A stretch of DNA of 64,000 nt from Candidatus Kryptoniota bacterium (lineage in GTDB: Bacteria; Bacteroidota; Ignavibacteria; Kryptoniales; Kryptoniaceae): assembly GCA_938074445.1 (NCBI GenBank), contig CALJEK010000039.1, positions 1-64,000 of the forward strand, given 5' to 3'. The stretch's first letter is position 1; each line of letters begins with the position of its first letter. The notes below the pieces were generated by a model. That model searched no databases. It was not told where the DNA came from and worked only from the letters and a program-made list of their open reading frames with translations. Shown piece after piece: positions 1,474 to 64,000 of the stretch. Position numbers and translations under genes: made by a program.

Positions 1474-1494
1474 GGCTTACGCCTCCTTTAGTTT

Positions 1495-2709: not shown

Positions 2710-2715
2710 TTTTTT

Positions 2716-4050
2716 TTAAAATTTCTTTGGTAATTGAGGCCATGCTTCCCACGGGAAGTAAAACTCCCAATTTGGACCTCTCATATAGGTTCCAATGATT
2801 ATCAAAACAATCACGAAGAAGCACAAAATCAAGAAAATTATGTTTTGTTTTGTCCTTTCCTTGCTAAACCAAACACCTGTGCTAAGGTTTGAACTCTTAT
2901 CAAGGTATGGCCATATGGCAAGCAAAGCTACTAAAATCCCTGGAATTAAAATTCCACCTACAAATGCGCCGTTTATAACAAAACCACCTATCCTTATCGT
3001 CGTTATAGCCACAAGCTCTTGCAACCAGAGAAAATACCAAGGTGCCTTAGCAGGATTCGGCGTCACATTTGGATTTGCAGGTTCCTCAAGTGGCGCGTGA
3101 ATAAACAAACTTATCAAAGCAACGAAAACAAACGTCCCAAGCATAACAATCCCAATTCTGCGAATTAAAAACGGAATTGAATTGACGGTATATTTCTCCT
3201 CATCAATCAAAGTCGCCTCAACTTGAACAGTTCTGCCTGTCGTCAACCCAAGCAAAGAATATGTTTTGCTTTTTATCCCATCCGTGATCTTCTCTTTTTT
3301 CTGATTCAACACAAGATTATCAACGCATGCAAGTCCACCATCTTTCCTTATCCTCCACATATGATAAGAGAAAAGCACCAAAACCGCAGCTGGCAAAAAG
3401 AAACAATGAAGCACATAAAACCTTATCAAAGCGTTCTGCTCAATTTCATACCCACCTAAAAGAACAAATCTTATCCACTCGCCCACAATCGGGGCATTCT
3501 TAGCGATATTTGTTCCAACTGTGATAGCCCAAAAAGCAAGCTGGTCCCAAGGCAAAAGATAACCCGTAAACGAAAGCAATAAAGTTATGAGAAGAAGTAC
3601 GACACCAACAATCCAGTTCAACGGTCTATTTTGACCAGCTCCAACGCCATTTTTATAAGCACCCGTCAAAAACACCCTGACCATATGAAGAAAAACAAAC
3701 GCAACCATCAAATGAGCAGAATTCCTATGCATCGCCCTTATGAACCACCCAAACGAAACGACATACTCTATATCTTTAACACTTTGATATGCCCTCTCGA
3801 CGGAAGGAACATACAAAAACATTAAAACAACGCCAGTCAAAGTCAGTATCAAAAACAAAGTAGCAGTTATAGTCCCAAGCCAAAGTGAATATCCCCAAGA
3901 CAAACTTTTTAAAGTCACCTTCGCAGGAAACCAGTGAAGCAAAAGATTCCGAACAATCGAATCACCCGCTTCTTTTTCAGACCTTGGAGCCCATGTCCAA
4001 AACAAACTTCGCTTTACTAGTTTTTTGCCGTTAACTTTAACTTCAGCCAT
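2716..4050 (-). CDS. cytochrome b (fused b6/subunit IV type) of a Rieske/cytb complex
   Basis: [75 protein letters not shown]. Confidence 0.93.
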
Positions 4051-4067
4051 AAAATACCCTGTTTATT

Positions 4068-4565
4068 TTACACTGTTAACTTATAGTTTTGCGATACTTT
4101 TTTGCTAAAATCTACAACAAGTTTACCATCTTCGGGTGAGACTTCAACCTTAACCCAATCAAGTGGCCTTGGCGCAGGTCCAGCATAATTAGTTCCATCA
4201 CCATAAAATTTCGAACCATGGCATGGGCAGTGAAACTCCCATTTCACTTCAACTTCCTTACCGCCTATTTTCACTACCTTCGGTTTTGAAAGACCAACAT
4301 ACTTAACCGTACAACCAAGATGTGTGCAAACCCCAGAAATCGCGTAAAATGTCTTGCCTTCACGGAATATGTATGTCTTGATATCGTCGATAAAAGTTAC
4401 GCCATCAGGAATCTTGTCAGGTTCATCAATCTTAACCCGCTTTATACCTTCATAGCTTACATTCGGAAACAGTGACCTTATCCAAGTATAAATTTGCCCC
4501 ACGAGGGTTAAGAGAAGCGCTCCGATACCAAAATTTTTCAAAAATTTCCTTCTGTCAAATTTCAT
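4068..4565 (-). CDS. Rieske 2Fe-2S protein
   Basis: CTHLGC...CPCHGSKF...GPAPRPL; N-terminal TM. Confidence 0.95.
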   Translation of the reverse strand: MKFDRRKFLKNFGIGALLLTLVGQIYTWIRSLFPNVSYEGIKRVKIDEPDKIPDGVTFIDDIKTYIFREGKTFYAISGVCTHLGCTVKYVGLSKPKVVKIGGKEVEVKWEFHCPCHGSKFYGDGTNYAGPAPRPLDWVKVEVSPEDGKLVVDFSKKVSQNYKLTV

Positions 4566-9827: not shown

Positions 9828-11372
9828 ATGAAAAACACGATTGATTATTTAATTAAACTTCGCGAGGAAGCAAAACTCGGTGGAGGTCCCAAAAGGATTG
9901 AAGAACAGCACAAAAAAGGGAAATTAACAGCAAGAGAGAGAATTGATATACTCCTTGATGATGGAAGTTTTCAAGAAATAGACATGTTTGTCAGACACAG
10001 AACATATGATTTTGGGATGGACAAACAACGTCCACTTGGAGATGGGGTTGTCACTGGGTATGGAACGATTGATGGTCGCCTTGTTTTTGTTTTTAGTCAG
10101 GATTTCACGGTTTTCGGTGGTTCGCTTTCGGAGGCGCACGCTGAAAAAATTTGTAAAATTATGGATCTCGCTATGAAGGTTGGGGCTCCGGTTATAGGCT
10201 TAAATGACTCCGGGGGCGCAAGAATTCAAGAAGGCGTTGCAAGCCTGGGTGGATACGCCGAAATTTTCCTAAGGAACACACTTGCATCTGGGGTCATTCC
10301 GCAAATTTCAGCAATTATGGGACCATGTGCTGGTGGTGCGGTTTATTCGCCAGCTATAACCGACTTCATCTTCATGGTTAAAAACACAAGCTATATGTTT
10401 GTCACGGGTCCAAATGTTGTTAAAACAGTTACGCATGAAGATGTTACCTTTGAAGAGCTTGGTGGAGCAACAGTTCACGCCACTAAAAGCGGTGTTGCAC
10501 ATTTTATATGTGAAAATGATGTTGAGTGCTTGATGCATATAAGAAAACTCTTAAGCTATCTCCCTTCGAACAATATGGAAGACCCACCGCGAATTGAAAC
10601 AGGGGACGACCCAAATCGCGAAGAACCAAAGCTCGATTCAATAATTCCAGACAATCCGAACAAACCTTACGATATGAAAGAAATAATCTTATCAGTTGTC
10701 GATAACGGCGAATTTCTTGAAGTCCATGAGAACTTCGCACAGAATATAATTTGTGGTTTCGCAAGATTTGACGGCTATCCTGTTGGGATAGTAGCAAATC
10801 AACCTTCTGTCCTTGCTGGTGTTCTTGATATTGACGCATCTGTTAAAGCAGCTCGATTCGTGCGATTTTGCGACGCTTTCAACATTCCAATTATAACCTT
10901 CGTTGATGTCCCTGGATTTATGCCTGGGACAGATCAGGAATGGCGCGGGATAATAAAACATGGCGCCAAACTTCTCTACGCATATTGTGAGGCAACAGTC
11001 CCAAAAATTACAATCATCACAAGAAAAGCCTACGGTGGAGCTTACGATGTTATGGGGTCAAAACACATAAGAAGTGATATAAACTACGCATGGCCGACTG
11101 CAGAAATCGCCGTAATGGGTCCAAAAGGAGCTGTTGAGATAATTTTTAAGAAAGAAATTGAAAAAGCAGAAAACCCCGAAGAGATCGAAGAAAAACTCGT
11201 TCAGGAATACCGCGATAAATTTGCACATCCATACATCGCTGCTGAAAGAGGTTATATTGATGATGTAATCGAACCCAGAAAAACAAGACAAATGATAATT
11301 AAAGCTCTTAGAATGCTCGAGAGCAAAGTCGACACAAATCCAAAGAAAAAGCATGGAAATATACCGTTGTAA
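9828..11372 (+). CDS. pccB: acyl-CoA carboxylase carboxyltransferase subunit (propionyl-CoA carboxylase beta / MmdA family)
   Basis: [90 protein letters not shown]. Confidence 0.93.
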
Positions 11373-11390
11373 AATAAATCGTAAAGCTTT

Positions 11391-12530
11391 ATGTTTGATT
11401 TCATTTTAATTGCCTCGGCAATTTATTATGGACTTGAAATAATTCTTTTTCTGATTGCGCTTACGAAGGATGAATGGAAAAATCCTGTGGACGATAAAAA
11501 TTTGCCAAACGTAAGCGTGGTCGTAGCAGCCAGAAATGAGGAGGAAAATATTGAAAGATGCGTTAAATCAATCGCTGAAGTTGACTACCCAAAAGATAAA
11601 CTGGAGATCATAGTTGCGAATGATGGATCAACAGATCGGACAGCTGAGATAGTTCAAAACCTTCAAAAAAATATCCCAAGCCTTAAACTTTTGAACATTG
11701 AAACCTCCGTGAGTAATCTTAAAGGCAAAGCAAATGCCCTCGCTCAAGCAATCGATAAAGCAAGTGGTGAATTTATCTTTATGACCGACGCTGATTGCAT
11801 TGTTCCCAAAGGTTGGATTAAAGGGATGTTAAAATATTTTGATGATAAAACCGGAGTTGCATCTGGGATCACCATAATTGAGCCTGGTAAAATTTTTTAC
11901 GGGATGCAATCTCTCGATTGGGCATTTCTCCTTGGCGTCGCTGCTGCTGTCGGAAAACTTTTTAAGCCAGTTGCATGTATCGGGAACAACATGGCGTTTA
12001 GAAAAAGAGCATACGCAGAAATTGGTGGATACCAAAATTTGAAATTCAGCATCACGGAGGACTTCGCACTTTTTAAAGCAATAACACAAACCGAAAAATG
12101 GAAATACTCTTTCCCAGTCGATATTGAAACCCTTGTTATAAGCAGACCTGTAAAAACATGGAAGGAACTTTACCATCAGAAAAAAAGATGGGGAACGGGC
12201 GGACTTGATACGGGTCCATTGGGTATCGGCATAATGGCAGGTGGATACATTTTTCACCTTCTTTTACTTCTATCCCCATTCCTTGTAAAAAATCTTTCTG
12301 CGCTTTTATTTGCAATCCTTTTAAAATTTATCATCGATGGTTCGTTCCTTTTCAAAATTTTGAAAAGATTTGGAAAAATTCGCCTTCTTAAATATCTCCC
12401 ATTCTTTGAACTTTACTATATAATCTATGTTGTCGCCCTCCCGTTTATGGTTTTCTTCGGCGGTAAAACTGTGTGGAAGGAAAGACGATATAAAGGATTA
12501 AAGCATTTAAAAATGATTGAGCCACGCTAA
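11391..12530 (+). CDS. family 2 glycosyltransferase, membrane-associated
   Basis: VSVVVAARNEEENIERCVKSI...DGSTDRTAEI...MTDADCIVP...KKRWGTGG; C-terminal TM segments. Confidence 0.9.
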   Translation: MFDFILIASAIYYGLEIILFLIALTKDEWKNPVDDKNLPNVSVVVAARNEEENIERCVKSIAEVDYPKDKLEIIVANDGSTDRTAEIVQNLQKNIPSLKLLNIETSVSNLKGKANALAQAIDKASGEFIFMTDADCIVPKGWIKGMLKYFDDKTGVASGITIIEPGKIFYGMQSLDWAFLLGVAAAVGKLFKPVACIGNNMAFRKRAYAEIGGYQNLKFSITEDFALFKAITQTEKWKYSFPVDIETLVISRPVKTWKELYHQKKRWGTGGLDTGPLGIGIMAGGYIFHLLLLLSPFLVKNLSALLFAILLKFIIDGSFLFKILKRFGKIRLLKYLPFFELYYIIYVVALPFMVFFGGKTVWKERRYKGLKHLKMIEPR

Positions 12531-12875: not shown

Positions 12876-15476
12876 CTATTTATTCATCACCAAATTTGAA
12901 CCCTTCTTCCTGGCAAATGTCCACATATAATCACGCAGTGCTTTTATCTGCTCATTTGCATTTCCATCAAGCACATCAGGAATTGGGCTTGTTCCCTCAT
13001 AGAAAAACGTCGGCATATTTGTCCCCGGTTGAATTGCCTGCGGATCGCGCAACCAATCAATAACCCATTCGGGTTTCAATCTCCCAGGGGCAAGATCAAG
13101 ATTTGGAGCAAGCATTGAAGCAGATAAACCACTCCCAACAATATGACATTTCAAACATTGTAACCTATCAAACAAAATTTTTCCTGCCGAAACATATTTT
13201 TGTTCGAGAGGGACATCATAGCTTCTAACTTTAAATTCCTGATTGCTTAAGCCAAGGAAATACTTTATCAGTGATGTTATTTCGTCGTCTGTAAGTTGAA
13301 ATGTTGGCATTCGTAACTTAAACCACGGTCTTATCGTGCTTGGATTTCTCAAAAATTGATAAAGCCACGGTTCTTGAACCTTCGCACCTTCGATGGTGAG
13401 CAATGGGGGACGTAGCCCCGGGTCTTCAATCATCGGATGTATGTATCCGCCCTGCTCCTCAATTTGATGGCAATTGATACAATTATACCATAGACTTAAT
13501 CTTCGCCCCTCGTTGATTTCTTGCCTCTTTTTATCAAATTTTTGAACATATTTTGACCCAACTTCATTTTTCTTAAAACTTGCTATCAAAGTCACCAATG
13601 CGTTTATCTCTTTCTCCGTAAAATTAAACTGTGGCATCTTCAATTGTATCCTTTCCGTTGAATAACCACGAGGATCGCGCAATTTTTCAGCGAGCCAAAC
13701 AAGACGATCCTTGGGGAGGTGTTCTTTATATCCAAAATCCAATTGTTCAATATTTTTTCGCGCAAAATCAGAAATGTCAACGCTTACCTTTGTTTCCCTT
13801 TCTGTGCCTTTTATCTCGTGACAACCGTAACAACCGTAACTTTTTATTAATTTTAAGCCTTGTTCAGCTTTGCTTTCAGAGTAATCTATTTTTATATTCG
13901 CATAATTTACCGTATCCCTCAAAGTCATCAAATAAGCAACGATATCGCTTGCTTCTTGATCTGTTAATCTCAAACTTGGCATTTTCGTATTTGGGAGATA
14001 ATGCCTTGGATTTTTGAGCCAATCATAAAGCCATTGGGGATTTACCTTACTTCCAATTTTTGTTAATTCAGGAGCAACATCATAATTCAACCCTCGCGTT
14101 TCCCTAACAACTTTGTTATCCCCAATCGCATGACACCCAAGACAACCAATATTTTCAACGAGCTCTTTACCGCGAGCGGGGTTCCCGCCACCCTGATATT
14201 TAAATTGATATTGCCAGTTTCTCATAGTATCTTGACCAATCTTAACAAGATAGGCAGTGATAGCCTCGGCTTCTTCGGGGGTCAACTTAAAATTTGGCAT
14301 TCTCCCATTCGGCAAATACTCACGTGGATTTAAAACCCAACGATAAATCCATTCCGGGGTTGTCTTCACAAGAAGATTATTTAAACTTGGAGCAACTTTT
14401 GGAAAATCATTATATCCATCAACACCATGACAACCATAGCAACCTGATTCTATCAAAATGTGCTTTCCCATAGTAAGCGTCGGTGCCCACTTTAGATTAA
14501 TCTCGTTAAAGTGACAATCATTACACCCAGCCTCAATATATTCTTTTTTCAAAATTGGCCATTCCCAATACTTATCCTTATCTCCGTGCGCATATCCTTC
14601 CGTAAGAGCTGGTCCTTGACCCCGATGACACGGAGTACAACCGAATGTTTCAGGATTATGCTTCTCAAGAAGTTCAAGATTGGGATGTGTTCTAAATGGC
14701 TGGGGTGCGTCTTCAAAAAGTGGATCATTCCATCCAAGATGACAAGTCTGACACCTATCAACACGAGTTTTCAAAGTCCCAAAATTCGTTCGCTCAAACT
14801 CAGGCAACATCACTTGAATAATTTTTATCTGCGCTTCTTTTGTCTTTTGAATTCTATCTTGGATTTTGTTTATCTCTTCAAAAAGTTTACTGATCTCATG
14901 TTCGATATCCTCAACCCTTGCTCTATAACTTTTAACTATCGCCCACGCTTCATCCTTTTTCCTCATCAATTCCTCTATCTTAGAGTTAAATTCTCTCATC
15001 AATTCCTCTTCCCGCTGTATCCTCGCCCACCACTTTTGAACTTCTTTATCACCTTCATTTTCAAGTTTTGCCCTTTGATAGAAATAGTAATATTCATCAG
15101 ATCTGCTTTTTGCAAATTGAAATTTTCTAGTCAACTCAGCAAGTTCTTTTTCGTATTCTTTATATTCAGCGAGTGCCTTTTTATATTCTTCTGATTGAAG
15201 TCCTGATTTCGCCTTCACAAGCTCCTCGCGCAATTCATTATATCTTGCGCTGTCAAAGTTTGCAATTGCAATTTTATATAGCGAGTCAAGCTTTGCGAGT
15301 TTTAACTGATAAAATTTTCTTTGATACTCCTTCCATGGTCTTCGGGTTGAAACTTCATCTATAACAGCCCATAATGTCGCAAGGAAAAGAATTGTGGCGA
15401 GCGAAAGATAAATTTTATCATATCTTCTTTGCTCAATTGGCGTTTCCCTGCGTTTTTTTAACCACTTTAAAATCAT
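12876..15476 (-). CDS. membrane-anchored octaheme c-type cytochrome with N-terminal coiled coil
   Basis: Eight CxxCH (CQTCH, CTPCH, CNDCH, CYGCH, CLGCH, CYGCH, CINCH, CLKCH); N-terminal TM and about 230 aa charged coiled coil. Confidence 0.9.
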   Translation of the reverse strand: MILKWLKKRRETPIEQRRYDKIYLSLATILFLATLWAVIDEVSTRRPWKEYQRKFYQLKLAKLDSLYKIAIANFDSARYNELREELVKAKSGLQSEEYKKALAEYKEYEKELAELTRKFQFAKSRSDEYYYFYQRAKLENEGDKEVQKWWARIQREEELMREFNSKIEELMRKKDEAWAIVKSYRARVEDIEHEISKLFEEINKIQDRIQKTKEAQIKIIQVMLPEFERTNFGTLKTRVDRCQTCHLGWNDPLFEDAPQPFRTHPNLELLEKHNPETFGCTPCHRGQGPALTEGYAHGDKDKYWEWPILKKEYIEAGCNDCHFNEINLKWAPTLTMGKHILIESGCYGCHGVDGYNDFPKVAPSLNNLLVKTTPEWIYRWVLNPREYLPNGRMPNFKLTPEEAEAITAYLVKIGQDTMRNWQYQFKYQGGGNPARGKELVENIGCLGCHAIGDNKVVRETRGLNYDVAPELTKIGSKVNPQWLYDWLKNPRHYLPNTKMPSLRLTDQEASDIVAYLMTLRDTVNYANIKIDYSESKAEQGLKLIKSYGCYGCHEIKGTERETKVSVDISDFARKNIEQLDFGYKEHLPKDRLVWLAEKLRDPRGYSTERIQLKMPQFNFTEKEINALVTLIASFKKNEVGSKYVQKFDKKRQEINEGRRLSLWYNCINCHQIEEQGGYIHPMIEDPGLRPPLLTIEGAKVQEPWLYQFLRNPSTIRPWFKLRMPTFQLTDDEITSLIKYFLGLSNQEFKVRSYDVPLEQKYVSAGKILFDRLQCLKCHIVGSGLSASMLAPNLDLAPGRLKPEWVIDWLRDPQAIQPGTNMPTFFYEGTSPIPDVLDGNANEQIKALRDYMWTFARKKGSNLVMNK

Positions 15477-15499
15477 ATGGCTTTGCTCTTTGTTTTTAA

Positions 15500-16393
15500 T
15501 TAAACATTAAACCAAGGCGTCACCCAGACATACTTAACATTTAAAGTCCATCTCAAAATCATTTTTATCGGCAAAGCGATCATAGTCAAAAACAAGTAAG
15601 AAGTTACTATATATCTTGTCAGTCCAAATTTTTCAGCAAAATCTGGCATCTTCCTTTTTAACCACAACCAACCAAGAGGCATTAAAATAGCATAATAACC
15701 AATAACGACAACACCACCCAAAATAGATGCAATTGGATTTAAAGCCCCATTCGGATTATAAGTTGGTATTCCAAAGAGTTCGGTTAAATCAACATTTGTA
15801 ATCGCAACAACTTTATGAGGGTCCCATTCCTCCCAAGGCCAGAAGAAATTCCAACCAGGTCCTCTGAAAAATGTTCCGACAAAAATCAAAAGAACCCAGA
15901 GGACAAGAAATCCAAATGCGAAAATTGTAATCGCCCACTTTCTTTCTTTGAATGTATAATAACCATTGCCTTTCGGATTTATATCAATGTATGGTATTGC
16001 CATCAAACCAATTATGATAAGCCCAGGCAATAAAACACCAGCAATCCATGGGTCAAAATAGACCAACATCTCTTGAAGCCCGAGGAAATACCAGGGGGCT
16101 TTAGATGGGTTTGGCGTCAGTGTCGGATTTGCTGGCTCTTCAAGCGGAGCATCAAAAGCGATCGACCAAAGCAAGACAAAAACCATAACAGCAATTGCAG
16201 CGATAAATTCAACCCGAACAAGATATGGCCAAACTTGAACTTTGTCCGTCTCATCGGCTTCGTATGGAACACCACGTTCATCATTTCTTTTCGCCTTTTT
16301 CATCGAGTAAATAAAAAAACCGTAAACAGTGAAAAGAAGAATTATTATCGGAAAGTTATCCGGATTCCCGAGAATTTTCAGGAGATTATGCAT
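15500..16393 (-). CDS. cytochrome b C-terminal half (subunit IV-like)
   Basis: [43 protein letters not shown]. Confidence 0.92.
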   Translation of the reverse strand: MHNLLKILGNPDNFPIIILLFTVYGFFIYSMKKAKRNDERGVPYEADETDKVQVWPYLVRVEFIAAIAVMVFVLLWSIAFDAPLEEPANPTLTPNPSKAPWYFLGLQEMLVYFDPWIAGVLLPGLIIIGLMAIPYIDINPKGNGYYTFKERKWAITIFAFGFLVLWVLLIFVGTFFRGPGWNFFWPWEEWDPHKVVAITNVDLTELFGIPTYNPNGALNPIASILGGVVVIGYYAILMPLGWLWLKRKMPDFAEKFGLTRYIVTSYLFLTMIALPIKMILRWTLNVKYVWVTPWFNV

Positions 16394-16414
16394 ATCGAAA
16401 AATAAGATTTTATT

Positions 16415-17191
16415 TTAAATCTTTTTTGGAGCAGGACCTGAAATACCTCCATCTTTTCTCACGCGCCAAAAATGAACAGCGAGAAAAATTGCTGTGACAA
16501 GCGGGAGAAAAATGCAATGAAGAACATAAAATCTCAACAAGGCTGGTGGACCAACCTGTGTTCCTCCAAGAAGCAAAAATCTTATATCGTTATCAGGTCT
16601 CATTCCAAGCTCCGGACCAAAAGGTCCCTGATGCCCAAGAAAAGGTGTTGCACGCGCCATATTGGTTCCAACTGTTACAGCCCATATGGCAAGTTGATCC
16701 CACGGTAAAAGATAACCTGTAAAGCTCAAAAGAAAAGTCAAAAGCAAAAGTATAACCCCGATAACCCAATTAAATTGCCTCGGTGGTTTATATGAGCCAG
16801 TCAAAAATACCCTGAACATATGAAGCATGACGGTTATAACCATAAGGTGAGCTGACCAACGATGCATATTTCTTATCAACGCACCAAACGGGACATCGTT
16901 CATCAAATATTTCATATCCTCATAAGCATATTCAGCAGCCGGACGATAATAAAACATCAAAATCACTCCCGTTATCGTAAGAATTATAAACAGAAGAAAC
17001 GAAATCCCACCCATCCCCCAAGTATAGCCATAATTCACGGCATGCCTCGAAACCCTCACCGGATGGAGATGTAAGAAAACATTATCAACGACCATCAAAG
17101 CTCTATTTCGCTGCGTATCTTCGTAGCCGTGTCGAAAAATCGACTTATAAATATCCGAACTTTTTATCTTCTTTTTTATTTGAGCAAGCAT
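16415..17191 (-). CDS. cytochrome b N-terminal half (b6-like)
   Basis: [27 protein letters not shown]...[23 protein letters not shown]...RKDGG then stop. Confidence 0.94.
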
Positions 17192-17216
17192 ACTTCAAAG
17201 TTTAATTTGTTTTAAA

Positions 17217-17828
17217 TTAACTTCTATATGGCAAGAACGAGCCCGGCTTTCCCCATTCACCTTTTTCATATCTATAAGTGATGCCCTTATCAATTAAGAT
17301 TTGACCATCTTCAGCAAGCGTTATCTTCACCCTTTCAAGCGGTCTTGGCGCAGGACCTTCAAAATTAATTCCAGATTTTCTAAAACCACTCCCATGGCAC
17401 GGACATTTGAACTTGTTCTCACCGCTCAACCACCTCGGTGTGCAACCGAGATGAGTGCAAACGGCAAGAAGAGCATAAAAGCCATCTTCCTCACGAACTA
17501 TCCAAACATGCTGTGAATCTTTAAACCTTTCGCTCACCTCGCCCACAGTATACTCATCTGGATAGCCAGCTTTGAATGCGGTTGGCGGTTCATAAAGAAC
17601 ACGAGGGAACATATATCTAATCGCACCGATAATTGAAGTGAAAATAAATCCCAAAAATCCAAGCCAACCAGTGAGCGTCAAAAAAGAACGACGATTAAAT
17701 TTCCATAACCCTGTATCATTTTCAGGTGGTTTATCTTGCTTTGGAACAACCTTCTTTTTTACATCCTTCTGGACAACCTCTTGATTCGTGGTTTGATTAA
17801 AGCCTTCGCTCATCGTGAAAAGCTTCAA
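17217..17828 (-). CDS. Rieske 2Fe-2S protein
   Basis: CTHLGCTPRWLSGENKFKCPCHGSGF...GPAPRPLERV. Confidence 0.95.
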   Translation of the reverse strand: MKLFTMSEGFNQTTNQEVVQKDVKKKVVPKQDKPPENDTGLWKFNRRSFLTLTGWLGFLGFIFTSIIGAIRYMFPRVLYEPPTAFKAGYPDEYTVGEVSERFKDSQHVWIVREEDGFYALLAVCTHLGCTPRWLSGENKFKCPCHGSGFRKSGINFEGPAPRPLERVKITLAEDGQILIDKGITYRYEKGEWGKPGSFLPYRS

Positions 17829-25461: not shown

Positions 25462-27231
25462 TTATTTAGCTTCAACTTTAATCGATGCAGTCTGCGGAAT
25501 ATAGTCTTCTTCAGCACCAGGAACGCTATACTCATAAGGTCCACGGTAAACAACTGGCAACTCTGGTCCCCAATTCCCATGTGGCGGTGGTGAGTCAGCC
25601 TGCCATTCAAGTGTATTTGCTTTCCATGGATTCTTATCTGCCTTCGGACCCTTGAACATGCTCCAGAAGAAATTGAATAGAAAGATAAACTGAGCTGCGC
25701 CTGCTATAAAAGCAGCTATTGTAATAAATTTATTTAAGCCAATAAATTGAGATGTGAAGTTATACTCAGTGAAAGAGTAATATCGGCGTGGGACTCCGGC
25801 TATGCCCTGGAAAAACATTGGGAAGAAAATTAGATAAACGCCTATGAACGTCCCCCAAAAATGAATTTTGCCAAGCTTATCATTCATCATTCTACCAAAC
25901 ATTTTCGGAAACCAATGATAAACCCCAGCAAACATTCCAAAAGCAGCAGCAGTTGCCATCGTAAAATGAAAATGAGCAACAACAAAATAAGTGTCATGAA
26001 GTTGAATATCAACAGGAGCAGTTGCAAGAAAAGCGCCAGTTAATGCCCCCGGAATAAACAAACCAAGAAAACCAAGCGCGAACAACATTCCAGGTGTAAA
26101 TCTTAAGCTTCCGCGCCACACTGTTACGAGGTAATTAAATATAAGGATCGCAGTTGGAAAAGATATCGCAAGCGTAGTTACAACAAAAATCTCACCAAGT
26201 ATTGGATTCATCCCGCTCACATACATATGATGTCCCCAAACGATCATACTTAACGCTCCAATTCCAATTATAGCTCCAACACAAATCTTATATGCAAAAA
26301 GTGGTTTCCTTGAATTTGTTGCGAGAACTTCACCAACAATTGAAACAGCGGGAAGCAAAACTATATAAACCTCTGGATGTCCTAAAAACCAAAATAAATG
26401 TTGCCACAAAATTGGATTTCCCCCTTCGTGTGGAACTGGTTGCCCACCGAGAACAAGCCCACTTGGTACAAAAAAGCTTGTTCCAAATTCACGATCAAAA
26501 ATTAACATCACAGCCCCAGCGAGCAAAACGGGAAATGAAAGCAAACCAAGTATAGCAGTTACAAACATCCCCCATACAGTTATCGGCAATCTCCCCATCG
26601 ACATTCCCTTGGTTCTATAATTCAGAGTTGTTGTAATATAATTCAATGCACCCAGCAAAGACGAAACAATAAACAAAGCCATACTTATAAGCCAAAGCGT
26701 GGTGCCAAAACCAGACCCCGGAACCGCATTTTTAAGCGCACTTAACGGCGGATACATAGTCCACCCAGCACCAGCTGGACCAGTTTGAACAAAAAATGAA
26801 ATTAACATCACAACAGATGCAGCAAAAAATACCCAATAGGAAAGCATGTTTAAAACCGGAAACGCCATATCTCTCGCACCTATTTGCAACGGTATCAAAT
26901 AGTTTGAGAATGTACCACTTAAACCAGCGGTTAATAAGAAAAATACCATTATCGTCCCGTGCATCGTTATAAGAGCCGTATAAAATTCAGGCTTTAAAAT
27001 CCCACCCTCAGCCCATCCGCCAAGTATCTTTTCAAGCAGGGGAATCGGCTGATTCGGATATGCAAGCTGCAATCGCATAAACCATGATAAAATCATCCCA
27101 ATAAAACCCCAAATGATGCCTGTTATAAGATATTGCTTTGCTATTGTCTTATGGTCTGTGCTAAAAATATATTTTCTTATAAAACCTTCCTTATGGTGAA
27201 CCTCCACTTGAGAGTGCTCATGCCCTGTCAT
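25462..27231 (-). CDS. ctaD: cytochrome c oxidase subunit I (ATG at 27231 preferred)
   Basis: STDHKTIAKQYLITGIIWG; WQHLFWFLGHPEVYIVLLPA; WGHHMYVSGMNP; DTYFVVAHFHFTMATAAAFG. Confidence 0.97.
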   Translation of the reverse strand: MTGHEHSQVEVHHKEGFIRKYIFSTDHKTIAKQYLITGIIWGFIGMILSWFMRLQLAYPNQPIPLLEKILGGWAEGGILKPEFYTALITMHGTIMVFFLLTAGLSGTFSNYLIPLQIGARDMAFPVLNMLSYWVFFAASVVMLISFFVQTGPAGAGWTMYPPLSALKNAVPGSGFGTTLWLISMALFIVSSLLGALNYITTTLNYRTKGMSMGRLPITVWGMFVTAILGLLSFPVLLAGAVMLIFDREFGTSFFVPSGLVLGGQPVPHEGGNPILWQHLFWFLGHPEVYIVLLPAVSIVGEVLATNSRKPLFAYKICVGAIIGIGALSMIVWGHHMYVSGMNPILGEIFVVTTLAISFPTAILIFNYLVTVWRGSLRFTPGMLFALGFLGLFIPGALTGAFLATAPVDIQLHDTYFVVAHFHFTMATAAAFGMFAGVYHWFPKMFGRMMNDKLGKIHFWGTFIGVYLIFFPMFFQGIAGVPRRYYSFTEYNFTSQFIGLNKFITIAAFIAGAAQFIFLFNFFWSMFKGPKADKNPWKANTLEWQADSPPPHGNWGPELPVVYRGPYEYSVPGAEEDYIPQTASIKVEAK

Positions 27232-27259
27232 TTTGAACCTCTTTTTTAGTTTAAAAATA

Positions 27260-28108
27260 TCACCAATAAATATCACCCGCTGGAGTTTGCTGAGATAACC
27301 ACTCCTGCACTTCCTCCATCGGCTTAACAACAACCAACGATTTCATCCTGTAATGCCCCAAACCACAAAGCTCCGCACATGCAAGCTCATACTCCCCTTC
27401 CTTCTTTGGAACAAACCATGTTCTAGTAACCATCCCAGGCACCGCATCTTGCTTAACTCTAAAATTGGGAATAAATGGGCTATGTATGACATCTTTTGAC
27501 CTTATTAAAAGCACAACAGGATGATTTAAAGGCAAATACAGAACGCCTTCACCAGCTGGAAAAACTATGTCATCTTTGGACGCTTCATCACTCATATCAA
27601 TACCAAGTGGATTATCATATGAAATGAGTTTGGGATCAACTTTGCCAAATTTTCCATCTGGACCAGGGTACCTTATGCTCCACGCAAATTGTTCCCCAGT
27701 TATTTCAACAAGAAACGCATCCTTGGGCGGTTCTCCATGTATTTTCCCCCAAATGGAAGCTCCCCCTAGAAATTCGGCGCTTATTTCAAGAATCATTACA
27801 ACAAGCACCCCAGGCAAAATTGACCAAAGTATCTCTTTTTTTGTAGTGCCAGGTAGATAAAAAGCCTTTCTTCTCGCATCCCCAGCGTATTTGAAAATAA
27901 AGTAAGAGAGGGCGAGCTCACTTAAAACGAACAAAATGCCCGCAATAATAAATATCGTCACAAAAATTTTATCGATTGTCTCTCTATCCGATGCAAGTTC
28001 AGGAAGCCACCATCCATTTCTTAACACAACCCAAACGCTCGCGATTGAACCTAAAATAAAGAAAAACAAAAATAATAACCCATGAAACTTGCTTTGATTC
28101 TGGGACAT
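27260..28108 (-). CDS. ctaC: cytochrome c oxidase subunit II (CuA)
   Basis: KDVIHSPFIPNFRVKQDAVPGMVTRTWF...CAELCGLGHYRM; EITGEQFAWSIRYPG. Confidence 0.95.
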   Translation of the reverse strand: MSQNQSKFHGLLFLFFFILGSIASVWVVLRNGWWLPELASDRETIDKIFVTIFIIAGILFVLSELALSYFIFKYAGDARRKAFYLPGTTKKEILWSILPGVLVVMILEISAEFLGGASIWGKIHGEPPKDAFLVEITGEQFAWSIRYPGPDGKFGKVDPKLISYDNPLGIDMSDEASKDDIVFPAGEGVLYLPLNHPVVLLIRSKDVIHSPFIPNFRVKQDAVPGMVTRTWFVPKKEGEYELACAELCGLGHYRMKSLVVVKPMEEVQEWLSQQTPAGDIYW

Positions 28109-32966: not shown

Positions 32967-35051
32967 TCACTTGAGCAATACCATCTTTTTCGTTGCAACG
33001 AACTCATCGGCAGTTAACCTATAGAAGTAAACACCGCTTGCAAGTCCAGATGCGTTGAAATCAACTGTGTGTACACCAGCCCTCATATATCCATCTACCA
33101 AAACGCTTACCCTTTCACCTAAAGCATTAAATACCTCAAGTTTAACTTTAGCATCCTTTGGCAAAGCAAACGCTATCTTTGTGCTAGGATTGAATGGGTT
33201 CGGATAGTTCTGATAAAGTTCAAATTTAATCGGCACATCATAGGTTGGGAATTCAACACCTGTAATTTTGCTAATTGAAAGCTGAAGCAATCTCACGACA
33301 TATTTCGGATTGTGGACACCATGGCTTTTATCTTCAACAACATAACGATAGTTCCAATAAGCTTGCTTCAATCTAACCGAGTCTGGATCAGTTCTAATTT
33401 GCTGCCAGTCAACTCTTGGTTCTCCTCTCGGTGGCAATGCGATTGCAAGTTTTTCAACTAAACCATCAACCTCCTTCATAAATGGTTCAACAACACCATC
33501 CATATCATAGTCATAAGAAGCAATTATATCATCGAACTTAGTTATACCAGTATGGCATGTCACGCAACCGGTTATGTTATCATACTCTTGACCATCGGGA
33601 GCGATATATTTCATCTTCCAAGTATGCATTCCAATTTTATCTCTCGCAACATGACCAGTATCTGGGGTTGCGGACATATGACAGCCGACGCATGCATTTT
33701 CAACAAGTCGATGTCCAACGCTGCTTGGCATAGTTTCGCCCCAAGTGAAACCATTCTGCCCAAGATAAACATCACCAGCTCCAGCGTAGTGCGGTCCCCA
33801 AAATGGGCTAAGATTTGCCGTAATATATGTTAAAGCGTTTCTGCGATACTTATGACAATTAACACAGAGTTTACCTTTGCCAAGGTTAATTTGTGAATAG
33901 TTAAACCCATTCGCAAGTGTATCCGCCGATGCAGGTGCTTCTCTTAACTCCATTGAGTGCGGATCATGGCAGGTTTGACAAACTATCTTCGTGTGAGTGA
34001 TCGCACTATAACCTGTTGACGCCCTGTTATCAAATTGCTCATTTTTAACAAAGCTTACGAAAGCAGCGCCATCGTGGCAACGAACGCAAACATTAAGATT
34101 ATACTGCCCTGGTTGAATTGGCTGTGCTCCAGATGCAGTATTTCTAAAGCCACTTGACCAAACTGCTTCGGCATGACCTGAGTATTCCCACTGCACATAG
34201 CGATTATATCTCCAAGGTTTATTATGGCATTGAGCGCAAACTTCAGGATTCATCGTCTTTGGTTGTGTTCCAGCCCCAAAGTGAGCAGGATTTTTTGGAC
34301 CATGACAGTTTTCACATCCAATAGTTGCAAGTAGACTTAACCCTTTCTTATCAGTTGTTAAAAGTGAATCAAATAGCCCAGCTCTTGGTGGCTTCCATTG
34401 ATTCCAATCAAATCCAAGCTGTGTTGCAACATCGTCAAACCCACTATTGTTTGCCATTGTGTTGTAACCTGTCGTATGACATCTCCAACAGGAAGGACCC
34501 CAGTATGGAGTTAATTTCCCATTCATACCGCGCTCAAATATTGTCGCATGCCCAGAAGAACTCCACTTTGAATAGACATCAGGGGTTGGACTTTTATGAC
34601 AGCTTGCACAGTTAAGAGTTTGGCTACCTATGTTTTTCCAGTCAACGCCAGTGTAATTTGCTGCAATGATTGTAATAGTAGTATCGTCAACACCATTAAC
34701 AACAAGTTTAATTTGATAGGTCCCAGCTAAATCTGGAGTAAATGAAACCAATTGGGCACTTGTGCTACTCAAAACCGCATTTGAGTTCGTAGGCTTACTG
34801 ACGATTGACCACTCATAACTTGTGGCAGGTTTGAAAGCCGTATCACCAGAAATATCGTAACCCATAAGCCATACAACTGTGCCAGTCCCAACGACAGATA
34901 AACCAGAAGATACACTATCAAGGTTTGCAATTCCCATTTCTTTTAATTCATGTGGGGACATTCCCTTAATTTTGATGTAAGCCTTTTGGGCAAGGAGCGG
35001 AAAACTCAGGATTAAAAACAGGAGCAATAAAGTTATTGCTTTGGCTTTCAT
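32967..35051 (-). CDS. secreted nonaheme c-type cytochrome with T9SS (Por) C-terminal sorting domain
   Basis: Signal peptide; Ig/PKD-like N-domain; nine CxxCH; C-terminus FELYQNYPNPFNPSTKIAFALPKDAKVKLEVFNALGERVSVLVDG...GVYFYRLTADEFVATKKMVLLK. Confidence 0.92.
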   Translation of the reverse strand: MKAKAITLLLLFLILSFPLLAQKAYIKIKGMSPHELKEMGIANLDSVSSGLSVVGTGTVVWLMGYDISGDTAFKPATSYEWSIVSKPTNSNAVLSSTSAQLVSFTPDLAGTYQIKLVVNGVDDTTITIIAANYTGVDWKNIGSQTLNCASCHKSPTPDVYSKWSSSGHATIFERGMNGKLTPYWGPSCWRCHTTGYNTMANNSGFDDVATQLGFDWNQWKPPRAGLFDSLLTTDKKGLSLLATIGCENCHGPKNPAHFGAGTQPKTMNPEVCAQCHNKPWRYNRYVQWEYSGHAEAVWSSGFRNTASGAQPIQPGQYNLNVCVRCHDGAAFVSFVKNEQFDNRASTGYSAITHTKIVCQTCHDPHSMELREAPASADTLANGFNYSQINLGKGKLCVNCHKYRRNALTYITANLSPFWGPHYAGAGDVYLGQNGFTWGETMPSSVGHRLVENACVGCHMSATPDTGHVARDKIGMHTWKMKYIAPDGQEYDNITGCVTCHTGITKFDDIIASYDYDMDGVVEPFMKEVDGLVEKLAIALPPRGEPRVDWQQIRTDPDSVRLKQAYWNYRYVVEDKSHGVHNPKYVVRLLQLSISKITGVEFPTYDVPIKFELYQNYPNPFNPSTKIAFALPKDAKVKLEVFNALGERVSVLVDGYMRAGVHTVDFNASGLASGVYFYRLTADEFVATKKMVLLK

Positions 35052-57964: not shown

Positions 57965-58135
57965 GAGGGTTAAGTTTTTTGAAAATATAAAAAAAACCGC
58001 CACAAATTCCAAATTAATAGTCAATTCACGCTTGATGAGCCAAATTTATCGTTGCTTTATTCAAGGCGAAAACTTAAAATTGAAACATACAGTTTTCAAA
58101 CTTCGTCCGTAAAAATAAAAATGTTTGAGGCAAAG

Positions 58136-61100
58136 ATGAAAAAGTTAGCAACTTTAACATTTATCGCGTTAATATTCTTCACATCTTGGGCTTTACCATC
58201 ACAACAGGATAACTATTGGCAACAACATGCCCATTATAAGATCAAGGCTAAACTCGACCCAGATAAAAACATAATCACAGGCTCGGAAACCTTGATCTAT
58301 ACAAACAACTCACCAGACGATCTCGATAGGGTTTACTTTAGACTGTATTGGAATATCTTCAAGCAAAATAGCCACGGTTGGAGGTATGCGGAAAAGAGAA
58401 AAATGTACACCAGACTCAAAAAAGATTATAAAGGTGTCCAATTAAAAAAGTTTTCAATTATTTCACAAGGTAACGAGATACCTCTTGACTACAAAATTGA
58501 TGACACGATTCTTGAAGCAAATCTGCCCACGATTTTAAAGTCAGGAGAAAGTATAATCTTTAAAATTGAATGGGAAGCAGAAATACCACCAGGACCAGGA
58601 ATGAGAACTGGGGTTAGCAACCGCTGTTTTGATATTGCTCAATGGTATCCACAAATTTCAGTTTATGACAAATACGGATGGCACAAAGACCAGTACATAG
58701 GCACAGGGGAATTCCACAATGACTTCGGAGATTTTGAAGTTGAACTCGAAATCCCAAAAAGTTTTATAGTTGCATACAGCGGTGAACTTTTAAACCCAAC
58801 TGAAGTCTTACCAGATTCGGTCGTTCAAAAACTTGAAGAAGCAAAAAATAATCCAGGGAAAATTTACCGCATTGCCGATTTCTCTAATAGAAAAATAACC
58901 GATGAAGACAAAACAAATTATACGACTTGGAAATTCATCGCAAGAAATGTTCGAGATTTCGCTTTCAGCGCGTATGAAAAATACATTTGGGATGCTGTGT
59001 TCTGGAAAAACGAAGAACATCCATATGGCGGTGTGATGATCCATGCCCTGTATTTTAAAGATAACCAAATACATTGGAAAGATGAAGCTGTTAAATTTGG
59101 CTTGCACGCAATTAAATTCTTCAGCGAAAACTTTGGTCTATATGTTTATCCAAACGCATTCATTATGTCAAGCTACGCCGTCGGTGGCGGGATGGAATAC
59201 CCAGGGATCGTTTTCATTGGCTACGATATCACAAACTCACCTTATAGAGGGCTATTTGGAGTGATAGTTCATGAACTTGGTCATCAGTGGTATCCAATGA
59301 TGATAAGCAACAATGAAACCGAATTTGCATTTATGGATGAAGGGTTTAACACATTTATAACTACACTTGCGTTTGAAGCATACTATGGAAGAAAAAATAA
59401 TCTCCTCGATACAACTAAATGGTTTATTCGCTCTGCTGGAGTTTCAACCGATGAAAGAGAGAATAATCAACGTCAATACCTTTTACTTGCCGTTACAGGT
59501 TATGAAGAACCAATATCTACACACGCGGATCACTGGCTTGAAAATTACCCAGCTACAACTGCATTCTACCCGAAGACAGCAACCGTTATGTTTATGCTCC
59601 AATATGTGCTTGGTGATTCAATCTTTTCAAAATTGATGAAAGAATATTATAACCGCTGGAAATTTAAACATCCCTACCCAGAAGACTTCTATAACCTCGC
59701 AATGGAAATAAGCGGAAACAAAGATTTAAGATGGTTCTTTGATCAATGGTTCCATAGAACTTATACCTGCGATTACGGGATAAAATCAATGAGATCGAAA
59801 AAGCTTCAAAAAGATGGAAAAGAAATCTACGAAACCACAATAAAAATTATCAGAAAAAGCAGAGCTGTTATGCCAATTGATATCGCAATAAAAATGAAAA
59901 ATGGGGAAACTACATCTGTAAATCTTCCCGTTGACATCTGGCTAAACGATGAATGGGAAAACGAAGTCAAAATTGAGTTGCCTTCAAAGCCCGTTTCAGC
60001 TGAGATTAACCCTGATTTAAGAATTGCAGATATAAATCGTCTAAATAATACATATCCATTCCCAAAAGTTAAAATTTCAATTGACAACACCCTTTCTTTA
60101 TCTCAGTTTATCGCCCCAATTGATGCATATTGGGTGAGATTAAGACCATCTATCTGGTATAACATTCCTGATGGCTTTAAACTTGGTTTAAAGTTTAACG
60201 GCTCTTACCTCAATGATGTCGTCTCTAACAAATTGTGGATTCTTTATGGCGTAAGAACAAAGGATTTCGATTTCTATTTGAATGATAACCGAAGAATTTC
60301 CTTTGAAATAAGCAAAAACATGTTTACAGAGTTTGAGATTTTTAAAACTGAAGGAAGATATGGTGGCAGCTTCGGAGTCAAAAAGCAACTTTCAAAAACT
60401 TTGACGATCCCACCTTTTCACAATTTGACGTTTAAGATCCAACTTCTGAAGTCGATTAACAATAATTATGTGGATACAATTTATAAATGGGACGATGGAA
60501 GGTTAACGAGATTAATCTTGGGGTATACATACTTTAATTACAGTAAAATTTTGCAAACGAAATTTTCACTTGTATTTGAGTCATCAACGATGTTGTCCAA
60601 CTTTAACTATGCGAAGGTTTATTCGGAAATTGCTCAAAAAATTCAACTTGGTTACGGACACACTATTGCGCTTAGATTATTTGGAGGATATGGCAATGGA
60701 CTCATACCAAATCAAACAAAGTTCTTCATTGCAACCTCATCACCCGTAGAACAGTTATATGTTCCAATCTACAGAAGTAAAATTTTTTCAACAAATTTCA
60801 GGCGACATATTGAACCATTTGGAGGTGCCGGATTGCGTGGGTATTTGGATCAAAATGTTTCTGATGATAGGGTTTATTCAGCAAATCTTGAAATAAACTT
60901 CCCCTCACTATTGCCATTTGTAAGGGCTCTACCAATTGTTGGGGGTATTTTTAAAACAGCAATATTTTTCGATGCGGGTAAAATTTGGGGGCAAAATCAA
61001 AGGACAAGCATTAAAGATATAAAATACGACTTAGGTTTCGGCATAAGAACAGATTTGATCAAACAAATGTCATCTATGACGAATATCTTTTCAGAGATTG

Positions 61101-61207
61101 GCTTAAGCACGCTAAGAATAGACTTCCCAATCTATGTAAGCCACCCTTTAAACGGGGAGAAAAGAACAAAGTTTAGATGGGTAATTGGGTTTGATATGGG
61201 ATTTTAA
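58136..61207 (+). CDS. M1-family metallopeptidase fused to C-terminal Omp85-like outer-membrane barrel
   Basis: Signal peptide MKKLATLTFIALIFFTSWA; VGGGMEYPGIVF; VHELGHQWYPMMISNNETEFAFMDEGF (HExxH-X18-E); C-terminal GGAGLRGYLDQ, FFDAGKIW, terminal Phe. Confidence 0.82.
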   Translation: MKKLATLTFIALIFFTSWALPSQQDNYWQQHAHYKIKAKLDPDKNIITGSETLIYTNNSPDDLDRVYFRLYWNIFKQNSHGWRYAEKRKMYTRLKKDYKGVQLKKFSIISQGNEIPLDYKIDDTILEANLPTILKSGESIIFKIEWEAEIPPGPGMRTGVSNRCFDIAQWYPQISVYDKYGWHKDQYIGTGEFHNDFGDFEVELEIPKSFIVAYSGELLNPTEVLPDSVVQKLEEAKNNPGKIYRIADFSNRKITDEDKTNYTTWKFIARNVRDFAFSAYEKYIWDAVFWKNEEHPYGGVMIHALYFKDNQIHWKDEAVKFGLHAIKFFSENFGLYVYPNAFIMSSYAVGGGMEYPGIVFIGYDITNSPYRGLFGVIVHELGHQWYPMMISNNETEFAFMDEGFNTFITTLAFEAYYGRKNNLLDTTKWFIRSAGVSTDERENNQRQYLLLAVTGYEEPISTHADHWLENYPATTAFYPKTATVMFMLQYVLGDSIFSKLMKEYYNRWKFKHPYPEDFYNLAMEISGNKDLRWFFDQWFHRTYTCDYGIKSMRSKKLQKDGKEIYETTIKIIRKSRAVMPIDIAIKMKNGETTSVNLPVDIWLNDEWENEVKIELPSKPVSAEINPDLRIADINRLNNTYPFPKVKISIDNTLSLSQFIAPIDAYWVRLRPSIWYNIPDGFKLGLKFNGSYLNDVVSNKLWILYGVRTKDFDFYLNDNRRISFEISKNMFTEFEIFKTEGRYGGSFGVKKQLSKTLTIPPFHNLTFKIQLLKSINNNYVDTIYKWDDGRLTRLILGYTYFNYSKILQTKFSLVFESSTMLSNFNYAKVYSEIAQKIQLGYGHTIALRLFGGYGNGLIPNQTKFFIATSSPVEQLYVPIYRSKIFSTNFRRHIEPFGGAGLRGYLDQNVSDDRVYSANLEINFPSLLPFVRALPIVGGIFKTAIFFDAGKIWGQNQRTSIKDIKYDLGFGIRTDLIKQMSSMTNIFSEIGLSTLRIDFPIYVSHPLNGEKRTKFRWVIGFDMGF

Positions 61208-61218
61208 AAATAATTGAA

Positions 61219-61241
61219 ACCCGCCCTTGTTTAGGGCGGGT
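61219..61241. terminator. hairpin between convergent genes (probable terminator)
   Basis: ACCCGCCCT-TGTTT-AGGGCGGGT. Confidence 0.7.
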
Positions 61242-61249
61242 GCAGTTTA

Positions 61250-62365
61250 TTAAGCCGTCATTGGCTTAGCTTTTATAACTTTGCTCAGCATATAGCCAAC
61301 GGTAATCAAACCAGCAATGAAGACAATTCCAAAAACAATAAGCACTGAAATCTGGGGTTGAACTTCGAATTGCTCGGGTTTGAAATAATCCTTTAAATAA
61401 GCATCCCTTAAAATATCTCTCATCACAGACATACCAGCGATCGTCAAGAAAAGCAAGGCGATACCAGATATTGAGAGCGGTTTTGGATTTTGAGCGTTGA
61501 AAGAAAGCAAAATAAGGATTAAACTAACGAGAGAAAGCAAAATAGAAACACCAAAAACAGCGGTCGCCAAACCATTTTCTCCCATAAAAATCATCATTAA
61601 ATTTTTCTTGAGAGAAAGCAAAAACCATATTCCAACCGCATATTGAACAACAGTGCCAACCACAAACCAAAGCCCACCATATTTGATAGCCCATCTTCCA
61701 AAGTTTTCATCACTTTTCAATTTAACAAGACCATAAATTAACACAAGTAAACCTGCAACCGAGACTGCAGCCACGAGAAAGTGCAAATATCTTGGGATTA
61801 CAGTTGGATCATCGAGATTAAAATTAGTCCCATGAGGATTGGCGAAATACTTCTGTGCCCATTTTTCTGGGGTCAACATTAAAACGAGAGTATTCGTATA
61901 AATGAGCCCGATCAACGCAAACAAAACAGCGCTCCCAAGCACAATCCACGCCCTCACCCCTTGAAGTTTTTCAAAATTAAATTGATAAATGTAATACCCG
62001 TAATAACCAATGAGCAAAAGCAAAATCACACTCAACCATGGCCACGCAAGAGTGATAGACGCCGAGTAAAAGTATTGCCCGTAGAGAACTTGAACAAACA
62101 ATAATGGTGCAATTCCAAGTGTTATAGTAAATGCCGTAGCGATTGGAAGCATTTTTGAAAAAGAACGAGCAAGGTTAAGATGAAATTGGCTGTTTTTCTT
62201 TCTACCGATCAAATCAGTTATGCCAGTGATTATACCACCACCAAGTGCAAAATTCATTGCAATGATATGCAGTATGAATGTAAGAACAAGTAAAAATTTT
62301 AAGAGCCAGTATGGCGCTGGCAATGGAATTGGGTCAGGATCTGGAATGATAATTTGTTGTGCCAT
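61250..62365 (-). CDS. CydA-like polytopic membrane protein (small paralog)
   Basis: LHIIAMNFALGGGI...PTVIPRYLHFLVAAVSVAGLLVLIYG...KYGGLWFVVGTVVQYAVGIWF; homologous by eye to the adjacent 521 aa protein. Confidence 0.6.
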   Translation of the reverse strand: MAQQIIIPDPDPIPLPAPYWLLKFLLVLTFILHIIAMNFALGGGIITGITDLIGRKKNSQFHLNLARSFSKMLPIATAFTITLGIAPLLFVQVLYGQYFYSASITLAWPWLSVILLLLIGYYGYYIYQFNFEKLQGVRAWIVLGSAVLFALIGLIYTNTLVLMLTPEKWAQKYFANPHGTNFNLDDPTVIPRYLHFLVAAVSVAGLLVLIYGLVKLKSDENFGRWAIKYGGLWFVVGTVVQYAVGIWFLLSLKKNLMMIFMGENGLATAVFGVSILLSLVSLILILLSFNAQNPKPLSISGIALLFLTIAGMSVMRDILRDAYLKDYFKPEQFEVQPQISVLIVFGIVFIAGLITVGYMLSKVIKAKPMTA

Positions 62366-62376
62366 TTTTAAACCTA

Positions 62377-63942
62377 TTATTTTGTTTTTTCTTCATTTAA
62401 ACTGTAAAGCCACTTGGCAAGTGCCTTCCTCTCCTGCTCCGTCCCTTCGAATGGGGGCATATATTCACTTAACATATCAAGGCGCTGAATTTGGAAATCA
62501 ATATAGTTTTCATCCCAACCTTTAACAAGTTCTTTTATGTGATCGATAGTATGGCAACTTTCACATTTATCCTTAAAAACTTCCTTACCAAGTTTGAGAA
62601 CATCTTTTCCCTTTGTCTCTTTAATTTTAGTTAATACCGTTGCTTTTTTTTCACTTAAACTATAAAGCCACTTGGCAAGCGCTTTTCTCTCTTGCTCCGT
62701 TCCGTAAAATGGGGGCATAAAACCTTTTAACATATCGAGATGCTGAAGTTGGAAATCAATATAACTCTCAGTCCAACCACTCACGAGTTTCTTTATCCCA
62801 TTATACCCATCAATAGTATGACAGCTTTGACATTGAACTTTAAAAATTTCCCTACCAGCCTCAAGTGCGTTTTCTTCACTTATTTCTTTAACCGAAACCC
62901 ATTTAGCAAAGTTTAATATTCCAGATTCATTTATCTTGTCAGCGTGAGCCTTTAGAATAGCGTTAGAATACATATAGTTGTAAATTATATACGGTTTTCT
63001 AACTGCCTCTCTCACCCACTCAGTTACAGCAGTAACCATAAATCCAAGGACAAGCAATCCTAACGCAAATGCAAACGATGTTTGTTTTGGTGTTTTAATG
63101 GGCCCAAGCCATGCAAATAAAGCAATGATAAGCGAAAACACAACACTTAACGCTGCGAAAACGGTAACGGCTGGCGCACCACCCATTATAATTTCGCGGG
63201 CAAGCGGTGGAATAATTGAAATATACCATATTCCCGCCACAGGAATGAGAATGAAAGCTGGAACTAACCACTTGCCTGAATATTGAACAACCTTAGTTCG
63301 CAACTCTTCATCCTTCAAGCGAGTTGCTGTTATCAAAGAATATAAACCCGCAAGTGCGAGGGCAACCCCAGTTCTTATAAAAAGAGATGGAAAGTATGAT
63401 GGATTGAAAAAGCCGATCCAGAATTTCTTTGAAGGTTCAGTAAACGGAATATCAACCCACTTTCCAGATGTAAGCATGAAAGTAAGAATTCCATTAATGA
63501 TAACTAAGCTAAGATAAGCCCCAGCAAAATAAATCCATCCAATTATGTTATGCGTCTTTGGATCAAGTTTATCCCATGTTGCATAGTAGATTAAAATTGC
63601 TGAGATTTCAACGATAAAAAACACCCATTCAATCGCCCACCCAAAGACATAGCTATGAATTAAGGTTGATGTGGCAGACGGATGCACAAGCCCTATTGTA
63701 AACCAAATTCCAACGCCAGATAGAGCGCCAAATACAACGGTGATAAGTAGGAAAAACTTTGAATGCTTTTTCAAGTAATCGATAAGCTTTTGATCGTTCT
63801 CTTTGATCGCCTTTCTTTCAGTTAAAGCAAGATAAATTCCTCCACCAACTGCAAAATGAGATACAAATACGTGCAAAATTGCAACGATACCAATTAAAAT
63901 CCCTCCACCAATTAATGGAACATCCCAAAATGGGTAGTTCAT
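62377..63942 (-). CDS. CydA-like polytopic membrane protein with two C-terminal tandem c-type heme domains
   Basis: LHVFVSHFAVGGGIYLALTE...FGALSGVGIWFTIGLVHP...FGWAIEWVFFIVEISAILIYYATWDKL; CQSCH and CESCH. Confidence 0.65.
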   Translation of the reverse strand: MNYPFWDVPLIGGGILIGIVAILHVFVSHFAVGGGIYLALTERKAIKENDQKLIDYLKKHSKFFLLITVVFGALSGVGIWFTIGLVHPSATSTLIHSYVFGWAIEWVFFIVEISAILIYYATWDKLDPKTHNIIGWIYFAGAYLSLVIINGILTFMLTSGKWVDIPFTEPSKKFWIGFFNPSYFPSLFIRTGVALALAGLYSLITATRLKDEELRTKVVQYSGKWLVPAFILIPVAGIWYISIIPPLAREIIMGGAPAVTVFAALSVVFSLIIALFAWLGPIKTPKQTSFAFALGLLVLGFMVTAVTEWVREAVRKPYIIYNYMYSNAILKAHADKINESGILNFAKWVSVKEISEENALEAGREIFKVQCQSCHTIDGYNGIKKLVSGWTESYIDFQLQHLDMLKGFMPPFYGTEQERKALAKWLYSLSEKKATVLTKIKETKGKDVLKLGKEVFKDKCESCHTIDHIKELVKGWDENYIDFQIQRLDMLSEYMPPFEGTEQERKALAKWLYSLNEEKTK

Positions 63943-64000
63943 TGTAGATGCTCCTACCTTTATTTTTAAATCGTTTATAATTTAGCGCTGAATAGAAAAC

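Follow-up and report, generated by a model that had tools for sequence, protein, structure and literature searches.

A pair of CydA-like paralogues with fused cytochrome c domains in a hot-spring bacterium: a candidate cytochrome c-fed oxygen reductase

Two neighbouring genes in the window, by which we mean the whole 64,000-nucleotide stretch of DNA analysed, encode membrane proteins that resemble CydA, and the product of the larger one ends in cytochrome c domains. The locus raises the question of which enzyme the two proteins form and where it takes its electrons from. A sequence-only reading had regarded them as paralogues that split the cofactor sites of a CydA-like enzyme and form a heterodimer fed by cytochrome c rather than quinol. 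According to our analysis, this kind of enzyme is already recognised and that interpretation is largely right.

The gene pair, its host and its distribution

The two open reading frames are adjacent and co-oriented, with a gap of 11 nt from the large-subunit to the small-subunit gene (Table 1). Their paralogy, first seen as short aligned blocks, was borne out by a sequence search, in which the 371-aa query recovers the 521-aa gene (E 2.8e-13, 25% identity across 304 residues), and by a profile-profile comparison of the large and small subunits (99.4% probability). Terminator-like sites outnumber those in shuffled sequence, and the 9-bp stem downstream of the pair is likely a terminator common to the small-subunit and M1-peptidase genes. 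As well, the 1051-aa protein encoded at 58052-61207 of the window combines an M1 peptidase domain with a long C-terminal part that by eye resembles an outer-membrane barrel.

Table 1. Window coordinates of the two genes, their flanking signals, and the domains and residues discussed in the text
Feature	Coordinates	Strand	Remarks
Large-subunit gene, 521 aa	62377..63942	-	8 predicted TM helices, CydA-like, then two cytochrome c domains
Small-subunit gene, 371 aa	61250..62365	-	CydA-like paralogue with 9 predicted TM helices; lacks a cytochrome c domain
Good ribosome-binding site AGGTAGGAG	63951..63959	-	Just 5' of the large-subunit ATG; read directly (L002 3952-3960)
9-bp perfect stem	61219..61241	.	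In the gap from the small-subunit gene to the convergent M1-peptidase gene (L002 1220-1242, reported on +)
CydA-like membrane domain, large subunit, residues 13-315	62998..63906	-	AF2 model, Foldseek, helix prediction
H24, large subunit	63871..63873	-	E. coli CydA H19, active-site heme ligand; 53/53
E105, large subunit	63628..63630	-	E. coli E99; 53/53
E112, large subunit	63607..63609	-	E. coli E107; 53/53
E312-A-V-R315, large subunit	62998..63009	-	Opens E-x-x-R-K-P-Y, the motif that matches CydA E445-Y-G-R448-Q-P-W
First cytochrome c domain, residues 359-429	62656..62868	-	CxxCH 62818-62832; throughout the family
Second cytochrome c domain, residues 446-517	62392..62607	-	CxxCH 62551-62565; extra relative to K. 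thompsonii
H33, small subunit	62267..62269	-	CydA H19; 60/60
H195, small subunit	61781..61783	-	CydA H186 (heme b558 ligand; missing in large subunit); 59/60

The host is a hot-spring bacterium that shares 93% protein identity with its near relative Candidatus Kryptonium thompsonii; its genome, of 2.28 Mb in 53 contigs, is 94% complete. Neither a second CydA nor a match to CydB (PF02322) was found in this genome. It encodes a caa3-type oxidase (25462-27333 of the window) and also carries a second heme-copper oxidase-like gene. The latter lies on contig C14 of this genome (G000, 11031-12347), where one TGA interrupts its frame.

Relatives were found at 337 loci in a scan of genome contigs. Among the best 80 of these 337 loci, the small gene adjoins the large gene in 75, and in the remaining five the large gene is cut by the end of the contig or lies directly before it, so that this neighbourhood survey gave 75/75 pairing wherever the contig is long enough, which upholds the idea of a conserved two-gene module. 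No other recurrent neighbour was common to more than seven loci, indicating that the unit consists of exactly two genes. CydB was undetected in 17 of the 26 genomes with the pair, the host included, and genomes holding both mostly hold canonical CydA too. Neither CydB nor a heme-copper oxidase was detected in six pair-bearing genomes, one of which (G156, 1.2 Mb) is clearly incomplete; in several genomes the pair is thus the only oxidase candidate of the two superfamilies searched, which bears on whether such organisms are called aerobes. Many carriers, such as Desulfobacterota, are anaerobes. At three loci (L006, L010 and L013), two tandem large-subunit genes are followed by one small gene, with a heme-copper oxidase-like gene upstream.

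CydA fold, heme-ligand residues and cytochrome c domains

The large subunit matched the families PF01654 (CydA; 47.7 bits, cut-off 26.2) and PF13442 (cytochrome c; 63.3 bits), and a search of PDB sequences also ties it to CydA. The small subunit matched no Pfam or NCBIfam family, and its alignment, searched as a profile against PDB sequences, found nothing; lacking such a model, half of the enzyme is missed by annotation pipelines. The AlphaFold (AF2) models of the large and small subunits had a mean pLDDT of 91.8 and 92.9, respectively. Foldseek matched the large-subunit model to solved CydA chains (E 8e-7) and the small-subunit model to the CydA of 5doq (E 3.4e-5), the match of the latter to the CydB chain 5doq_B being weaker (3.9e-3). 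Judged from these models, both proteins adopt the CydA fold, and no unrelated fold was seen, which substantiates the CydA relationship that had been drawn by eye. The small subunit was also considered as a CydB, and this was ruled out, as Foldseek favours CydA over CydB and PF02322 has no match in the host genome.

Conservation was followed in 53 aligned large subunits and 60 aligned small subunits, with 44 canonical CydA as the reference set. The large subunit carries the CydA active-site set H19, E99, E107 and E445 (E. coli numbering), with a one-residue alignment gap between the E99 and E107 positions relative to E. coli CydA, and the small subunit carries only H19. At the end of TM8, E312 (E445), R315 (R448) and P317 occur in 53/53 large subunits. 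The sequence-only reading had reported no quinol Q-loop GRQPW in either protein. The Q-loop is indeed absent, but a GRQPW counterpart exists (E312-A-V-R315-K-P317-Y), and the alignment rejects the view that none is visible; this motif sits at the end of TM8, outside the Q-loop. At the H186 position the large subunit has I189, flanked by invariant R190, and it is also without an M393 equivalent, so both ligands of heme b558 (H186 and M393) are missing. Its TM6-TM7 loop comprises only 13 residues, which means that the Q-loop with K252/E257 is gone and the quinol site lost, as had been supposed.

Equivalents of E99, E107, E445, R448 and M393 are all absent from the small subunit. Since its conserved histidines, H33 and H195, have no M393 match, a b558-like heme there is uncertain. 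The residue matches made by eye (H24, E105 and E112 with H19, E99 and E107; small-subunit H33 and H195 with H19 and H186) hold in the alignment, as do the lack of both glutamates from the small subunit and the placing of the FIRTG segment of the large subunit, with I189 and R190, at the H186 site. Heme-ligand residues are therefore unevenly divided between the paralogues, with the active-site set in the large subunit and H19-/H186-like histidines in the small one.

In the first cytochrome c domain, C371, C374, H375 and M409, which form the heme c motif and the Met ligand, are invariant, and this fused, covalent cytochrome c is the likely point of electron entry. Two CxxCH motifs are present at the end of the large subunit, in agreement with the earlier description, but the number is not constant: the Kryptonium thompsonii orthologue (L005) has one cytochrome c domain, the window copy being 86 aa longer, and two heme c domains were rejected as a family-defining trait. 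The second domain is identical to the first at 162/205 nt (79% DNA) and 51/74 aa. Across lineages, the number of cytochrome c domains in the large subunit ranges from one to three, one of them being constant, and a group of Desulfobacterota and Bacteroidales has 8 CxxCH in all, cytochrome c7/MtrC-like matches and the small gene upstream. A constant core with a variable donor side would fit electron entry through heme c.

The large subunit is predicted to have eight helices, an N-terminus outside and outside loops poor in K/R. The even helix number and the K/R-poor outside loops would place the cytochrome c tail on the periplasmic side, the side of the membrane on which c-type hemes are attached.

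Large subunits of about 885 aa that end in such a cytochrome c7/MtrC-like multiheme tail, with 8 CxxCH in all, were seen at L066, L068, L073, L076, L077 and L080-L084, with the small gene upstream, not downstream.

Relation to other members of the bd superfamily

The secondary literature recognises three divisions of the bd superfamily, qOR, OR-C and OR-N. A cytochrome c domain or donor, by second-hand accounts the defining trait of OR-C, has its parallel in the fused cytochrome c of the window pair. Compared by second-hand description, the features of the pair appear to fit OR-C, which is described as having a CydA-like catalytic domain without a quinol site and cytochrome c as the expected donor; no separating feature was found through these second-hand descriptions. 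The non-quinol families OR-C and OR-N were reportedly set out by Murali, Gennis & Hemp 2021 (ISME J), as relayed by secondary sources. A literature search for a described CydA-cytochrome c fusion returned no match. According to previous studies, the quinol site is kept in one family only and the bd enzymes characterised to date all oxidise quinol (PMC8509429), and non-quinol donors are expected in the OR families (PMC10839748, PMC8509429).

Canonical CydAB (qOR) shares with the large subunit the fold and the residues H19, E99, E107, E445 and R448, whereas the pair lacks a Q-loop and CydB, has neither H186 nor M393 in the large subunit, and has heme c instead. The OR-N proteins of Nitrospira and Nitrospinota are similar in that two CydA-type paralogues without a quinol site, OR-N1 and OR-N2, are thought to pair as CydAA' (PMC10839748). 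However, OR-N-like proteins are 590-720 aa long, have an estimated 10-15 helices and lack CxxCH, and they keep H186 and miss E99. In a tree from the first five helices, large subunits, small subunits, canonical CydA and OR-N-like proteins formed four clades, each with support of 100/99, and the large subunit did not group with OR-N-like CydA, of which the tree holds only six rows. The branching order of the large-subunit, qOR and OR-N-like clades had support of 90/51, with long branches flagged.

Cable bacteria, which are reported to be without a complete bd oxidase, have a CydA homologue (CydAh) with a periplasmic cytochrome c domain (PMC13047784). We examined 13 genomes (the family of G166) whose identity as cable bacteria is inferred; 12 of the 13 have globin genes, several of them fused in long frames. 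Their homologue resembles the large subunit in its CydA-like domain and one periplasmic cytochrome c domain, but it is a solo gene in which the H186 site is still a His and E107 has been lost, so that, by these sequence features, the solo type is a different subtype from the window pair. An overlooked small partner was considered and rejected, as the 13 genomes gave no strong small-subunit match and no partner gene lies beside the solo homologue in the 10 regions read. From this comparison, it seems that either subunit can carry the H186 site. Among the solo loci (L252-L261), which have one cytochrome c domain, L261 shows two CxxCH, and at L260 the membrane part and the cytochrome c part are in different frames.

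The proposed enzyme and its alternatives

The pair probably forms an oxygen reductase of the cytochrome bd superfamily that has two subunits and is fed by cytochrome c. Starting from what was seen directly for the pair (its sequence, predicted fold, conserved residues, gene pairing and lack of CydB), we infer its heme content, dimerisation, donor, O2 as substrate and physiological role. The CydA-like helices of the large subunit (H24, E105, E112, E312, R315) would bind the two active-site hemes, and electrons would reach these from the heme c of the subunit's own C-terminal domain, the Q-loop and the b558 ligands having been lost. Following helix 8, the cytochrome c domain would face the periplasm, the side on which quinol is oxidised in canonical CydA. 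The small subunit would stand in for CydB, possibly with a b-type heme bound by H195 and/or H33. In the host, the bc-type complexes of the same window would be the donors, and the enzyme would work beside the caa3 oxidase.

The folds, the invariant site residues, the loss of the Q-loop and of the H186 and M393 equivalents from the large subunit, the heme c motif and its predicted position outside, the pairing, the failure to detect CydB in 17/26 genomes, the six genomes without CydB or heme-copper oxidase (G156 being incomplete) and the non-quinol donors expected in the OR families all speak for this reading. Against it stand the quinol dependence of the bd enzymes characterised to date, the anaerobic carriers and the caa3 oxidase already present in the host, and conserved active-site residues alone are no proof that O2 is the substrate. 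The many anaerobes, as well as the action of canonical bd enzymes in NO and O2 defence (PMC10839748), would suit another small molecule, such as NO or peroxide, and a role in detoxification instead of respiration, but no linked detoxification genes recur beside the pair and we consider this improbable. An enzyme working between quinone and cytochrome c, as a quinol:cytochrome c reductase or in reverse, was proposed for the Nitrospina bd-like protein and raised for 14-TM bd-like proteins (PMC3578206), with the covalent heme c as a conceivable acceptor here; it appears very improbable, given that Q-loop and K252/E257 equivalents are absent, that the O2-site residues are strictly kept and that the host already has bc-type complexes.

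The small subunit might also be a heme-free scaffold like CydB, with all cofactors in the large subunit and heme c feeding the active-site pair directly. This would agree with its lack of E99/E107/E445/R448 and M393 equivalents and with its Foldseek match to CydB too (5doq_B, 3.9e-3), yet it seems rather unlikely: H33 and H195 are kept in 60/60 and 59/60 sequences, Foldseek favours CydA over CydB, and the solo CydA homologues of cable-bacteria-like genomes, without a small partner, carry the H186-type His, as if the site had moved. Within the cytochrome c-fed oxygen reductase that we prefer, we tentatively suggest, as a possibility short of an even chance, that the three-heme machinery of bd is split between two CydA paralogues and that lineages swap the electron-input module to suit their own periplasmic carriers. 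The large subunit would then contribute the di-heme O2 site and the covalent heme c, the small subunit a b558-type heme site, and the input modules would range from one to three cytochrome c domains or be a c7-like multiheme tail giving 8 CxxCH in all. Being self-contained in two genes and present in many phyla and a thermophile, such a cytochrome c-fed system is a practical target for testing whether cytochrome c oxidases occur in the bd superfamily.

Finally, the window also contains two Rieske/cytochrome b clusters. At 1-4565, one of them, which includes a multiheme cytochrome c, adjoins a nitrous oxide reductase-like protein; the other, at 12876-17828, includes a multiheme cytochrome c of 866 aa. 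A multiheme cytochrome of 694 aa with a secretion-sorting tail is encoded at 32967-35051.
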